Assembly (NCBI GenBank): GCA_035570235.1
Contig: DATMML010000103.1
Span: 1-64,000, forward strand
Length of the DNA stretch: 64,000 nucleotides
Direction: 5' to 3'
DNA from: Vicinamibacteria bacterium
GTDB lineage: Bacteria; Acidobacteriota; Vicinamibacteria; Fen-336
Position numbers and translations under genes: made by a program. Under the pieces are notes generated by a model, which saw only the letters and a list, made by a program, of their open reading frames with translations, ran no database searches and was not told where the DNA came from. How positions within the stretch are numbered: position 1 is the first letter of the stretch; the number at the start of each line of letters is the position of its first letter. Below are positions 45,360 through 52,238 of this stretch, in pieces.

Positions 45360-46903
45360 TCGGCCTCTTCCTGGCCGCGGGCCTCAGCGTGGCCGCGCCC
45401 GGGGACGAGGCCTATCGCGCGGCCTTGGCGCTCGTCTACAACGGGGCCTTCGATGCCGCGCGAGAGCGGCTCTCCGCCCTCTCCGCCTCCGCGCCCGCAG
45501 ACCCCGTCGGCCCCTACCTCCAGGCCTTGGCCCTCTGCTGGAAGCTGGAGCAGCGACCGGAAAGCACGGCCCTCGACGACGCCTTCCTCCAGAAGACGGA
45601 CCAGGCTCTCGCCCTCGCGGAGGCGCGTTTGAAGAGAGACAAAGACGACGCCCGCGCGCGGCTGGCGCGCGGCGCCGCCTACGGGGTGCGGAGCCGCTAC
45701 CACATCTTCCGCCAGCACCGGAGCGACGCCGCCAAGGACGCGGTCCGGATGCGGGAGGACCTGCTCAAGGCGCGCGCGCAGGGAGTCACGGACGGCGACG
45801 TTCGCTTCGGCCTGGGCCTTTACGACTACTACACGGACGTGCTGCCCAAGGTCGTGAAGCTGCTGCGCTTCTTCTCGGGGATGCCGGGGGGCGACCGCGA
45901 ACGGGGGCTGGCCCTCTTGGAGGAAGCCCAGGCGGGGACGCTCTTTCACGACACCGAGGCCCGGGTGCAGCTCTACGGGATCTACGCCTTCTACGAGGAC
46001 AAGCCCGACCGGGCGCTCGTGGAGATCCGGGCCCTCTGGGCCCGCTATCCGGGTTGGCCGCGCTGGGGCTTGAGCCTGGCCGAGCACCTGCGCGACCGGC
46101 TCGGCCTCTACGAGGAAAGCGCGGCGGTGGCGCGCACGGTCCTGGAGATCGCGGAGGAAGGGAAGCACTCCAACTACCAAGCCGTTGTGGCGGCCATGGC
46201 CCGCGTCTCTCTGGCCGAGTCGCTGCTCCTCGACGGGCGCTTCGCGAAGGCGCGGGCCTCCCTCCTGCCCGCGCAGGAGGGCTCTCCCGAGGCCCCCTGG
46301 ATCGCGCCCCGCGTCCACTTTCTCCTGGGCCGGAGCCTGGAGCGGGAAGGGGACCGCGACGCCGCCCTCTCGCACTACCGCGCGGCCGCGCAAGGGCCGG
46401 ATCGCGAGCTCCGCCGCCGCGCCCAGGCCGCGCTCGCCTCTCCCCTCCCCGCCGGGGAGCTAAGCGCCGACCAAGCCCTGGCCGCCGCGCGCCGGGAGCG
46501 CGAGGCCGGGCACGAGGAAGAGGCGGTGGCCTCCTGCCGACGCGCGCAGGCGGCCTGGCCGCGCAGCACGGAAGCCGCTCTCTGCGTGGCGGAGTCCGAT
46601 CTCAAACGCGGCCGTCGGGACGAGGCGCGCGAGATCCTCGAAGGCCTGGGCGAGGACAAGGGAGTCCGCCCTCCCTGGGCCCGGCCCTGGGCCGCGCTCC
46701 TCTACGGCCAGCTCCGGGATCTGGAGGGCCGCCGGGAGGAAGCCGTTCAAGAATACAAAAAGGTATTGCAGGAACCATACGGGCGCGAGGCCTTGCGCGC
46801 GCGGGCCGCGGAGGGGCTGCGGCGTCGCTTCACGCCGGAGAGCGGTCCCTCTCCCGTCCCGAGCGCGTCCGGCGATTTGTTTGCTATCCAAAGTAGTATA
46901 TAA
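45356..46903 (+). CDS. exported TPR-repeat protein
   Basis: A 515-residue protein with a short signal-like N-terminus (MIGLFLAAGLSVAAPGD) and helical repeats of the TPR kind, e.g. YNGAFDAARERLSAL, YEDKPDRALVEIRALWARYPGW, and REREAGHEEEAVASCRRAQAAWP. DALYYTD-like FGLGLYDYYTDVLPKVVKLLRFFSGMPGGD is a conserved block I associate with acidobacterial TPR proteins. It overlaps ddl by 4 bp, so envelope-related work is likely, but function is unknown. Confidence 0.8.
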   Translation: MIGLFLAAGLSVAAPGDEAYRAALALVYNGAFDAARERLSALSASAPADPVGPYLQALALCWKLEQRPESTALDDAFLQKTDQALALAEARLKRDKDDARARLARGAAYGVRSRYHIFRQHRSDAAKDAVRMREDLLKARAQGVTDGDVRFGLGLYDYYTDVLPKVVKLLRFFSGMPGGDRERGLALLEEAQAGTLFHDTEARVQLYGIYAFYEDKPDRALVEIRALWARYPGWPRWGLSLAEHLRDRLGLYEESAAVARTVLEIAEEGKHSNYQAVVAAMARVSLAESLLLDGRFAKARASLLPAQEGSPEAPWIAPRVHFLLGRSLEREGDRDAALSHYRAAAQGPDRELRRRAQAALASPLPAGELSADQALAAARREREAGHEEEAVASCRRAQAAWPRSTEAALCVAESDLKRGRRDEAREILEGLGEDKGVRPPWARPWAALLYGQLRDLEGRREEAVQEYKKVLQEPYGREALRARAAEGLRRRFTPESGPSPVPSASGDLFAIQSSI

Positions 46904-46982
46904 GGACGAACATTTCCGCTTTGGGAAGCTCTCAAGGCGCGTCCTCGCGGAAGGCCCTGCGGGACAGCCATTTCCCCGCATG

Positions 46983-47023
46983 GAATCGCTGAAACGCCCA
47001 TCTGGCGCGGGTTTCAGCGATTC
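46983..47023. repeat. 13-bp perfect inverted repeat (large hairpin)
   Basis: GAATCGCTGAAAC (46983-46995) pairs with GTTTCAGCGATTC (47011-47023) around a 15-base loop that itself holds GCC/GGC. It lies 80 bp after the TPR gene, in DNA that is visibly less GC-rich than the coding regions. A second, weaker stem TCCACA/TGTGGA follows at about 47036-47065. It may end transcription of the ddl operon, be part of a small RNA, or bind protein. Confidence 0.6.
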
Positions 47024-47094
47024 TGACATTTCCTTCCACAGGCTAAGCCCCTTCAGTTGTGGAGCATGGGACGGGCCGCCCACTCAAAAAAAGC

Positions 47095-47123
47095 TTGACA
47101 AGGTATGGCTTGATCCCTACGCT
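47095..47123 (+). promoter_or_regulatory. promoter of the lysine-rich micro-ORF cassette
   Basis: A perfect TTGACA (47095-47100), 17-bp spacer and TACGCT (47118-47123). GCTTGACA at 47093-47100 recurs inverted as TGTCAAGC at 47134-47141, so the -35 lies in one arm of an 8-bp dyad, a plausible operator. Transcription would start near 47130 and give a leader of about 85 nt before the first micro-ORF. Confidence 0.6.
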
Positions 47124-47214
47124 ACCCCTAGTATGTCAAGCCCCTTAGTACGCGAGATGTTGAAGAGGGGTGCGCTCAGCGTCCAGTCCTGGACCGAAAG
47201 GGGGGATCTCAGGA

Positions 47215-47265
47215 ATGCCGGCGAAGAAGAAGGCGTCTAAGAAGGCGACGAAGAAGAAGAAGTAG
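47215..47265 (+). CDS. lysine-rich 16-residue micro-ORF 1
   Basis: ATG to TAG, 16 codons: MPAKKKASKKATKKKK. Nine of 16 residues are Lys, all encoded AAG, with Ala, Ser, Thr and Pro between, like the tail of histone H1-like proteins. A G-rich AAGGGGGG ends about 8 nt upstream and AGGA touches the ATG. A promoter lies about 90 bp upstream and an intrinsic terminator follows 14 bp after the stop. Nothing known to me has this size. It is either a real nucleic-acid-binding micropeptide, a leader peptide, or an mRNA element. Confidence 0.5.
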   Translation: MPAKKKASKKATKKKK

Positions 47266-47279
47266 GCGCCCAGGGAAGA

Positions 47280-47310
47280 GGGGGGGTGAAGTCACCCTCC
47301 CCGTCTCTTT
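47280..47310 (+). terminator. intrinsic terminator 1 after micro-ORF 1
   Basis: Stem 47280-47289 with 47292-47301 (ten pairs, one G-T), two-base loop AG, then CGTCTCTTTC. The core GGGGTGA/TCACCC is the same as in terminator 2. The tail is only moderately T-rich, so read-through into micro-ORF 2 is plausible. Confidence 0.6.
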
Positions 47311-47366
47311 CGTGAGCTGACGGCGCCCATCGCCGGCAGATCACTCCGTACGGTTTGAGAGGGGGG

Positions 47367-47417
47367 ATGAAGGCGATGAAGAAGAAGAAGAAGGCAGCTC
47401 CAAAGAAGAAGAGGTAA
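47367..47417 (+). CDS. lysine-rich 16-residue micro-ORF 2
   Basis: ATG to TAA, again exactly 16 codons: MKAMKKKKKAAPKKKR. Nine Lys, all AAG, plus a C-terminal Arg. GAGAGGGGGG runs directly to the ATG. Its start is 152 bp after that of micro-ORF 1. A small GGCCG/CGGCC hairpin sits directly after the stop (47418-47431), then terminator 2. I see no separate promoter, so expression probably depends on read-through from micro-ORF 1. Confidence 0.5.
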   Translation: MKAMKKKKKAAPKKKR

Positions 47418-47437
47418 GGCCGCCGTCGGCCACGATT

Positions 47438-47469
47438 GGGGGGTGAGCAATCACCCCCTTTTGTTTTTT
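47438..47469 (+). terminator. intrinsic terminator 2 after micro-ORF 2
   Basis: GGGGGTGA (47439-47446) pairs perfectly with TCACCCCC (47451-47458) around a GCAA tetraloop of the GNRA class, followed by TTTTGTTTTTT. This is the best intrinsic terminator in the window. Confidence 0.85.
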
Positions 47470-47489
47470 GCGGAATCGCGGGGCCGATG

Positions 47490-49341: not shown

Positions 49342-50199
49342 TCACGAAGAGGCGGCGCCGGCCCCGGATAGGATGTGGGTTTCGATGGCCACCGCCACGC
49401 CGTCCTCGTCGTTGGTGGGGAGGACGGGCAGACCCAGGCGCCTGAGCTCGGGATCGGCGTTGCCCATGATGAGGCCGAGCCCCGCCCCCTCCAGCATCTC
49501 GTGGTCGTTCCAGTTGTCGCCGATGGCCAGGGTCTCCTCGGCCCTGAGCCCCCACCGCTCCTGCAGGAAGGCGAGCGCCTCGCCCTTCCCCACCGAGCCC
49601 TGGAGCACGTCCAGGAGGCCCACTCCGCTCTGGGGATAGACGGTGCGCACGACCTTGGCCTCCTCCCCCAGGACCGACTCCAGTCCGGGCCGAAGAGCGT
49701 CCATCTCCGCCTGGGGGCCCCCGAACATGACCTGGATGGGAGCCTCCGGGAGCGCGGCCGCGAGGTCTTGGACCGTGGACACGTCGGGAGAGGATCGGTC
49801 CAGGTAGTAGGCCACGAGCGTGCTCCCGCGCGCCGAGCTCTGCACGAGCAGCTGCCCCTCGCCGTCGAGGCCGCAGTGGACCACGGGGGTCGCGCCGTGA
49901 TCGTGGCCGTAATGGACGGCCCGGAGCGCGGCCTCCCGACGCAGCGGCCGGCAGCGGATCACGGCCCCCCGCTCGATGACCAGGGCCCCGTTGTGTAGCA
50001 CGAGCGGGATCTCGCCCCCCAAGTCCTCCGCCACGCGCCGCGCGGAGGGATAGCGCCGGCCCGTGACCAGGACGAGATGCACGCCCGCCGCCCGCGCCGC
50101 CCCGACCGCCGCGCGCGTGCGGGGCGACAGGCCCTTCTCGCTCGTGAGCAGGGTCCCGTCGATGTCGAGGGCGAGGAGCCGGAAGCGAGCTCCCCTCAG
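49342..50199 (-). CDS. Cof-type HAD hydrolase (CTG start)
   Basis: A 285-residue HAD-IIB phosphatase. Motif [11 protein letters not shown], motif II VLVTGRR, and motif [16 protein letters not shown] are intact; the cap lies between about 90 and 190. Substrate unknown, usually sugar or flavin phosphates. Between the cyclophilin stop and motif I the only possible initiators in frame are CTG codons. CTG at 50199 overlaps the upstream stop as CTGA, the same geometry as the ATGA/GTGA/TTGA junctions elsewhere here. Confidence 0.85.
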
Positions 50200-52238
50200 C
50201 GGCCGCCCCAGATCTCGATCCGCTCGATCACGTCGCCGGGGCGGATCTTGTCCACCACCTCCATCCCGCTCACCACCTGCCCGAAGAGGGTGTAGCCCCC
50301 GTCCAGGTGCGGCTGCGGGGAGTGCGTGATGAAGAACTGGCTCCCCCCCGTATCCTTTCCGGAGAGGGCCATGCCCACCGCCCCCCGCCCGTAGGGCCGC
50401 TCGCCGATCTCGTCCCGGAGCGTGTAGCCGGGCCCGCCGTTTCCATCGCCGCGCGGGCAGCCGCCCTGGATCACGAAGTTTGGCTCTACGCGGTGGAAGG
50501 AGAGGCCGTTGTAGAAGCCACGGCGGGCGAGGGCTATGAAGGAGGCGCACGTCAGGGGGGCTTCCACGGTGTCGAGGTGGATCTCGATGGCGCCGTAGGC
50601 CGTGTGGATGAAGGCCCGCGGGGTGAAGAGCGGGAGGCTGGGGACGGGTTCGTAGGGAGCCATGGCCAGCCGGTAGTCCAGGGGGGGGCGCTCCACGCTC
50701 TCCGCGCCGGGCGGGGGCGGAGAGGCGTCCCCCCGAGCCTTGAGGGCGGCGGCGGCCTGGGCGCGCACCGGCCGCGCGGGATCGCTCTTCGCGATCTCGA
50801 GGAGGGTGGCGTGGGCGGCCTCGTCTTTCTGCACGGCCAAGGCCGCCACCTGGCCCAGCCGGGCGTCGAGGTCGGCGTCCTCCAGGGACCGGCGGTAAGC
50901 GGCGAGGAGGGCCGCGGATTGGCCAGGAGCCTTGAGCGCGGCCAGGCCCTCCGCGGCCGCCGCCCGCACCGCGAAGTCCGGATGCTCGAGGTGGCGGCGT
51001 AGGGTGTCCACGGCGTCGTTGCCTCGGGCCTTGCGGAGGGCCTCGAGCACCGATGGGAGGACGCGCGTGTCCTCGTCTTTGAGCATCCCCAGGAGAGTGA
51101 CCAGACTGGCCTCGTCCCCCGCCTCCCCCAGAGCGGAGGCGAGGGCGGCCCGCACTATCCAGTCCGGGTCGGGGTCGAGGCCGGAGAGGACGAGGGCGAA
51201 CTCCTCGCGGTCGGTGCGGGCGAGGGCGGGCAGGGCGGCGGCCCGGATCCACGCCTCCCGGGCCCCGACGTAGGGCACGATCTTCGAGCCCAGAGCGGGG
51301 TCCGGGGGGAGCAGGGCCAGCGCCTTCAGCGCCTCGCGCTTGATGATGAGCGGGGCGGTGGCGAGGGCAGCGGCCACGGCGGGAACCCCCTTGGCGTCGC
51401 CGATGGTGGCCAGGCCGCGGAGGGCGGAGACCACCACCCTCTCATCCTTGTCGCGGCTGAGGCTGGCCAGGATCTCGACCGCACTGGCGTCCTTGAGGGC
51501 CCCTAGGCCGCGCGCGGCCAGGGCCCGGCTCAGGGGATCGCCGGAGGAGGCGGAAGCGACCAGCACCGGGCGAAGGGACGGCAGCTCGACGCGCATGGCG
51601 ACGTAGGTGGCCGCCCACCAGTCGAAGCGTGGCCGACCCCCGGCGAGGAGGGCGGTCTCCACGGCTCGTGCGTCCTTGAGGCGGGCCAGGGCTAGGAGTC
51701 CCAGGCGCAGCTCTAGCCAGGGATCGGCGGGGCTGCCCGGGTCATCGCCGCGCACGGTCACGAGGCCGGCGCCCTTGGGCACCGCGGCCAGCACGAGCTT
51801 GGCCACCTCCCCCGCCGCGCGCGCATCGCCGATCCGACCCAGCGCCTCCGCGGCGCGGCCCCGCACCACGGGGTCCGAGTCGGCGAGGGAGGCGACCAGC
51901 CGGTCCACCGCCGAGGTCTCCCCGATGAGGCCCATCGCGAATGCGGACACCTGCCGCACCTCGGGCTCGGGATCGTTCATGAGGTCCACGAGGGTGGGCA
52001 CGAGCGCGGGGTCGGCAACGCGCCCCGCGGCGAGGGCGGCTCGCCGGCGCAGGCTCCGGTCAGGATCGCGCAGGTAGCGGTCCAGCTCACCCCCCCCCGT
52101 GCTCCGCGTGTCCTCGAGGGCAAGGATCCGCGTGAGTTTCTCCGGGCGGCGGCGTGGCGGGGGAGCGACCGCCAAAAGGACCGGCGCGGTCAGGAGAAAC
52201 AGGAAGGCGGCGCGGCGCGGGAAGGAAAGCGCGGGCAT
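50196..52238 (-). CDS. HEAT-repeat protein fused to cyclophilin peptidyl-prolyl isomerase
   Basis: A 680-residue exported protein. After a signal peptide (about 1-25) come HEAT/PBS-type repeats from about 40 to 490 ([29 protein letters not shown] and similar). Residues about 525-680 are a cyclophilin domain: [19 protein letters not shown] and [20 protein letters not shown] keep the catalytic Arg and the Q-x-F-I-T core. A periplasmic chaperone with an extended protein-binding solenoid is the likely role. TATAAT lies ten bases before the ATG. Confidence 0.9.

Follow-up and report, generated by a model that had tools for sequence, protein, structure and literature searches.

The question raised by this locus is whether two lysine-rich reading frames of 16 codons each, lying one behind the other in a window of 64,000 nucleotides (by window we mean the whole stretch of DNA analysed), are genes, and if so, what their products might do. 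The cassette (window 47093-47470, plus strand) comprises a promoter, a structured leader of ~85 nt and two micro-ORFs, each followed by a hairpin (Table 1). It is carried by a 166-kb contig of a Vicinamibacteria MAG (assembly of 5.7 Mb, 99.6% complete). Each ORF contains nine AAG lysines, and their starts are 152 nt apart. No other ORF of 10-45 codons that starts with ATG reaches 33% Lys on either strand of the contig, and a chance origin of the pair is excluded because 20 contigs simulated with a first-order Markov model yielded no comparable Lys-rich ORF. Two longer frames, 46881-47240 (plus strand) and 46460-47083 (minus strand), overlap the conserved promoter and leader and were set aside as presumed chance frames. 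The first-pass annotation had proposed two real micro-ORFs missed by annotation, and direct reading, conservation and simulation all agree with that proposal.

Table 1. Features of the micro-ORF cassette and of the region upstream of it (window positions)
Feature	Position	Strand	Conservation and remarks
Conserved upstream block TTCCACAGGCTAAG	47034..47047	+	Few changes among 14 family members; ~50 nt 5' of the -35 element
A-tract, UP-element-like	47086..47092	+	AAA core invariant or nearly so in alignment A2; just 5' of the -35 element
Promoter: TTGACA, 17-nt spacer, TACGCT	47095..47123	+	TTGACA and TAC.CT core invariant in 14 genomes
Leader 5' stem-loop GCCCCUU ... GAGGGGU, conserved AUGUUGA loop	47140..47171	+	Covariation, folding
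Second leader hairpin GUCCA-GUCC-UGGAC	47181..47194	+	94% of cells paired in alignment A2; just 5' of the SD
Shine-Dalgarno (SD) region of ORF1, AAGGGGGGAT	47198..47207	+	GAAAGGGGGGAT block conserved
Micro-ORF 1, MPAKKKASKKATKKKK, stop TAG	47215..47265	+	Frame and lysines conserved in the family and three sister-family genomes; pN/pS 0.21 (indicative)
Terminator-like hairpin 1, weak T-tract CGTCTCTTTC	47280..47311	+	9-pair stem, 7 G-C; hairpin proper 47280-47301
Micro-ORF 2, MKAMKKKKKAAPKKKR, stop TAA	47367..47417	+	Second copy, dispensable; pN/pS 0.36 (indicative)
Terminator 2, GCAA loop, strong U-tract TTTTGTTTTTT	47438..47470	+	9-pair stem; hairpin proper 47438-47459

DNA similarity to the cassette extends to all 14 genomes of the window's family (f1), and a sequence model of the promoter, leader and ORF start, termed R1, matches all 17 genomes of the order, i.e. 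14 of 14 in f1 and three of three in the sister family (f2). Among 193 genomes of the class, R1 recovered the same 17 plus four genomes of a third family (f4), three of which have two matches, and a relaxed version of the promoter pattern, searched in the genomes of 84,980 species (257 Gb), matched 13 records, which correspond to the 13 other genomes of the window's family. Among the ORF1 peptides of f1 and f2 are MPAKKKAAKKATKKKK, MAAKKKAKKAAKKKK, MAAKKKAAKKGGSKKKK, MPAKKKARKKTAKKKTTKKKAAKKR and MAAKKAAKKAAKKKK. The micropeptides of the cassette are 15-41 aa long, about half of their residues are lysines, and their indels are whole codons. Summed over pairs, pN/pS is 0.21 for ORF1 and 0.36 for ORF2, values that are indicative, the sequences being short and repetitive. 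Alanine codons change freely at their third base, and the core Lys columns show hardly any variation. Lysine is encoded by AAG nearly throughout f1, and AAA appears in f2 and f4; selection therefore appears to act on the peptide rather than on a string of AAG codons. According to the first-pass annotation, loss of the frame in relatives, or Lys codons disrupted as often as kept, would have spoken against a coding function, and we found instead whole-codon indels and Lys columns that are held. Judged by frame conservation and purifying selection, the cassette is a protein-coding micro-gene, and we strongly infer that the micro-ORFs are translated. A profile search with the micropeptide alignment matched only two of 60 genomes, being too insensitive for low-complexity sequence.

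The number of ORFs differs between loci. Two are present at 10 of the 14 family loci (L003, L004, L005, L009, L010 and L012-L016); at L006, L007 and L008 no ORF2 was found and the GGGGGTGA..TCACCCCC hairpin is still present downstream, and the sister family has one ORF only. Since the sister family has one ORF and several relatives are without ORF2, ORF1 is by this distribution ancestral, and ORF2 is a lineage-specific copy. In genome G010, ORF2 is merged or replaced, and a single 64-codon Lys-rich ORF, MPAKKKLTKTQKKKVVKKLAKTKKGRKVLKKAAKKKISKMTPAQKKAAKKKVRKAVKKKAAKKK, lies within the same promoter/leader and final terminator; this ORF is a reading across two overlapping contig ends that share the same DNA, not finished sequence. 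The duplication of the cassette suggested by the first-pass annotation is probable, as ORF1 and ORF2 are near-identical to each other in several relatives, while the weight it placed on two tandem ORFs of exactly 16 codons is not upheld, given peptide lengths of 15-41 aa and the frequent absence of the second copy. The GGGGGTGA..TCACCCCC terminator core recurs in f1, f2 and f4. A pattern joining Lys-Lys-stop to a GGGGTGR..YCACCCC hairpin matched 16 of the 193 class genomes, all of them f1, f2 or f4, and the reversed-pattern control matched none of the 193. An intrinsic terminator had been predicted after each ORF: both hairpins are present, the second with the GNRA loop foreseen for it and a strong U-tract, but the T-tract of the first is weak. 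Because of this weakness read-through past terminator 1 into ORF2 is plausible; no second promoter was seen ahead of ORF2.

The -35 hexamer of the promoter (TTGACA, 47095-47100) is perfect, whereas the -10 hexamer (TACGCT, 47118-47123) matches TATAAT at only three of six positions, so that the "good promoter" claimed earlier stands for its -35 half and has to be qualified for its -10 half, which is nevertheless conserved. Because of the poor -10 fit a simple sigma-70 promoter scan of the cassette region reported no promoter; the case for a promoter is its conservation and not its fit to the consensus, and transcription probably starts near 47130. The TTCCACAGGCTAAG block, present also in all three sister-family loci, is possibly a site for an activator or another protein. 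Together with TATATA it lies in window 46892-47060, 5' of the cassette, and similar elements occur near the L094 locus. The idea that TTCCACAGG and TATATA mark a replication origin was dropped: dnaA with a box pair is ~87 kb off, and the GC skew has no clear turn. The dnaA gene (G000:C103:134269-134751) lies outside the window on the same contig, and two DnaA-box-like sites are found near it at 135189 and 135212. A 16S rRNA gene, sought for comparison with rRNA promoters, was not found in the assembly.

The leader was given as 85 nt in the first-pass annotation, which agrees with the ~85 nt of structured sequence seen here. Its first 46 nt fold as a stem-loop in most of 19 leaders (mean z of about -1.5), the structure being weak or absent in a few. 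The 5' stem-loop has a covariation score of 0.215, against 0.140 in shuffles (0 of 500 as high) and 0.232 in a control in which the structure was slid by one column (+1); because the slid structure scores as high, covariation lends the stem-loop moderate support. The sister family keeps it, with arms altered in compensating ways. The invariant positions of the leader alignment are TTGACA, TAC.CT, GTATG, ATGTTG and the SD. In a six-sequence consensus fold the SD is sequestered by the leader, but in L013, L014 and L016 both the SD and the segment it pairs with are different, and we do not claim sequestration. A lysine riboswitch or another known RNA was rejected, as the whole window gave no Rfam match at the gathering threshold.

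Within the window, tgt and ddl lie upstream of the cassette, and a HAD-like frame (within the ORF 49342-51252, minus strand) is parted from it by genes including one for an ECF-type sigma factor. Downstream, the gene convergent with the cassette is identified by Pfam as a Cof-type HAD phosphatase in L004, L005, L008, L009, L012 and L058; the f4 locus L063 also has a convergent Cof-type HAD gene, recognised by motifs, and tgt upstream. As a Cof-type HAD gene is faced in f1, f2 and f4 and tgt lies upstream in f4, the cassettes of the three families are most likely orthologs that have kept their position. In other members of the family the genes opposite the cassette encode cyclophilins or HEAT-repeat proteins; at the second f4 locus they are VWA, M20 or PfkB genes. 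On the minus strand of the window, 50196-52238 encodes a protein that joins HEAT repeats to a cyclophilin-type peptidyl-prolyl isomerase domain. Pfam hits were obtained for 19 genes flanking the loci on the downstream side; 17 of these are convergent, the two co-directional exceptions encoding a GDP-mannose dehydratase-type epimerase (L088) and a 2Fe-2S protein (L093), and no shared function was found among the flanking genes across the profiled loci. As the neighbours share no function and nearly all are convergent, a product acting in trans would be the simplest reading.

Two patterns (SD, ATG, Lys-rich, stop) searched over 396 Acidobacteriota genomes matched 13 and 8 of them, in about a dozen families outside the class. 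Such strict patterns find these ORFs in ~5% of the sampled Acidobacteriota, i.e. the micro-ORF is not universal in the phylum, or is often too diverged to detect. Each inspected analogue outside the class is a stand-alone ORF of 15-27 codons with an SD; in most of them a G+C-rich hairpin and a T-run follow the stop, although not all are clear and that of L112 is weak. L106 encodes a different kind of peptide, which contains FNRKHPRKADGTF. The flanking genes differ between loci; the ORFs of L108 and L109 come after what we take, from reading of CYKC.NCGSTSGCS, to be the C-terminus of a ribonucleotide reductase, and this stretch had no Pfam match. The analogues of other classes have the peptide and the SD in common with the f1 cassette, but not the f1 leader, and the two groups could be homologs or convergent.

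The reading that we favour, at a probability of roughly 0.55, is that these are real micro-genes whose trans-acting cationic peptides are ligands of nucleic acids, like the C-terminal tail of H1 or AlgP without a globular domain. The conserved promoter would give a short mRNA with a stem-loop leader, from which ORF1 would be translated from its SD site and ORF2 likewise, via read-through or a promoter of its own not seen here, each transcript ending at its own hairpin terminator. The predicted products, lysine/alanine peptides with a net charge of ~+9, would act in trans as cationic ligands of DNA or RNA, polyphosphate also being possible; polyanion binding we infer from composition and net charge alone. 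A cationic micropeptide had been one option of the first-pass annotation, and it is the likely product. Points against the favoured reading include the following: the leader is more strongly conserved than a plain constitutive gene would require, and a 16-residue peptide may be short-lived. No Pfam/NCBIfam family was found at E 0.1 for the 25-, 29- and 41-aa members, a weak test with such short, low-complexity queries; the 57 visible residues of the G010 protein gave only two weak, unrelated Pfam hits, and the PDB held nothing meaningful for this 64-aa protein. Because low-complexity peptides fit no profile family, the likeness to H1 tails is one of composition. No description of these peptides was found in the literature searched.

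If the target were the ribosome or another RNA and not the nucleoid, the product would be a micro ribosomal accessory protein, a role that suits its small size and extreme basicity as well as the conserved promoter with A-tract and SD, as expected of an abundant product. The proteins bTHX, bL36 and bL34 are likewise very small and very basic, but they have a fixed sequence and a fixed binding site, whereas the micropeptides keep composition and repeat only; their variable length (15-64 aa) and repeat number are easier to reconcile with a loose polyelectrolyte than with a fitted ribosomal protein and their distribution is patchy, and we regard this role as unlikely. Somewhat less probable still is that the RNA is the active part, as a dual-function or regulatory small RNA with an incidental ORF: the leader stem-loops are conserved in sequence and partly covarying and the transcript is short, with a terminator, yet the ORF is clearly constrained as coding sequence (indels of whole codons, a pN/pS of 0.2, Ala codons free at the third base), the other-class analogues have the peptide and SD but not this leader, and the window has no Rfam match. 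We give little credence to an AlgP-like role in which the peptide would attach to polyphosphate or storage granules and help to position them. AlgP, with its H1-like KPAA tail, organises polyphosphate granules (PMC9239181), and the convergent neighbour at L090 is a Ppx/GppA phosphatase, but the profiled loci have no consistent linkage to polyphosphate genes, and AlgP itself is long and has an N-terminal domain.

Attenuation of transcription by a lysine-sensing leader peptide or a pausing ORF would match the textbook layout, a run of Lys codons directly ahead of an intrinsic terminator. The leader peptides of the his, trp and ilv attenuators are encoded by short ORFs rich in the codons of one amino acid and followed at once by a terminator, as here, but the cassette has no regulated downstream gene. 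No plus-strand gene follows in the window, as the first-pass annotation had remarked; across the loci the downstream genes with Pfam hits are convergent in 17 of 19 cases, the neighbours differ between loci, and ORF2 is lost in several genomes while ORF1 stays. As the terminator is not followed directly by a biosynthetic or transport gene in the same orientation, attenuation is already largely refuted and must be rated highly improbable, and the pausing leader that the same annotation had offered as its second option finds no support, the downstream genes being convergent and unrelated. A secreted antimicrobial peptide, RiPP precursor or toxin deserves just as little weight. The peptide is cationic, and elsewhere in the same genome a Lys-rich peptide lies beside a RiPP-type radical SAM protein, but the micropeptides have neither a signal peptide nor a core motif after the Lys-rich stretch, and modifying or export genes are absent among the profiled neighbours. 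A RiPP precursor was rejected for the cassette, which has no core and no nearby enzyme; the peptide on contig C42 has a candidate core and an enzyme. The latter peptide (L002, G000:C42:117546-120592, positions 1566-1474 of the locus, minus strand; 30 aa, Lys-rich, MAKKKKAAKKKTTKKPAKKKKKTAACIGPG) adjoins a radical SAM protein assigned to TIGR03975, a RiPP maturation C-methyltransferase subfamily (E 2e-135), and is likely a RiPP precursor with a Lys-rich leader.

The nucleic-acid ligands that we favour could belong to something broader, and we offer this tentatively: an Acidobacteriota gene class in which a 15-40-residue H1-type tail is the whole product, serving as a genetically encoded, polyamine-like counter-ion of the nucleoid, expressed from dedicated, conserved, structured transcripts, and in which the locus can expand to encode a longer protein of H1-like type, as in G010 (64 aa). 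If so, G010 would show one stage in the emergence of linker-histone-like proteins that consist of a tail only, and its Lys-rich protein in place of two micropeptides would form part of a natural series on the origin of linker-histone-type proteins. If the peptides do bind DNA or RNA, few stand-alone gene products that bind RNA or the nucleoid would be as small. Genes so small and of such low complexity fall below annotation length limits and are barely visible to profile search, and a class of basic micropeptides could be absent from the annotation of many soil bacteria.

Among known systems, the nearest in the close relatives themselves are small proteins of 73-84 aa at L018 and L022 with KKAAKKK-type tails, which, unlike the micropeptides, add an N-terminal part of ~45-50 residues and are encoded at different loci. 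The pair (G009:C10 and G010:C88) shares the N-terminal part ARRTTHRS.AGKKLYAVRD.. and the KKAAKKK-type tail, and its 73-aa protein had no NCBIfam match. The features of H1-like proteins are found in part: the Lys/Ala(/Pro/Thr) repeat composition with repeat-unit variation is there, and a Pfam/NCBIfam profile match is not, which is a weak test for short, low-complexity sequences. AlgP is the best-studied analogue that we found; its KPAA tail resembles histone H1, and AlgP-type KPAA peptides bind DNA in vitro (PMC9239181). For Hc2, a length that varies by repeat units is reported (PMC2848022). Like AlgP/AlgR3 and PhaF of Pseudomonas and Hc2 of Chlamydia, the micropeptides consist of Lys/Ala(/Pro) repeats, vary in length by repeat units, are basic, and are expected to be disordered and to bind polyanions. 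Unlike them (~165-350 aa, in AlgP with an N-terminal domain), here the tail is the whole product, which mostly measures 15-41 aa and whose gene has a promoter, an SD and a terminator to itself.
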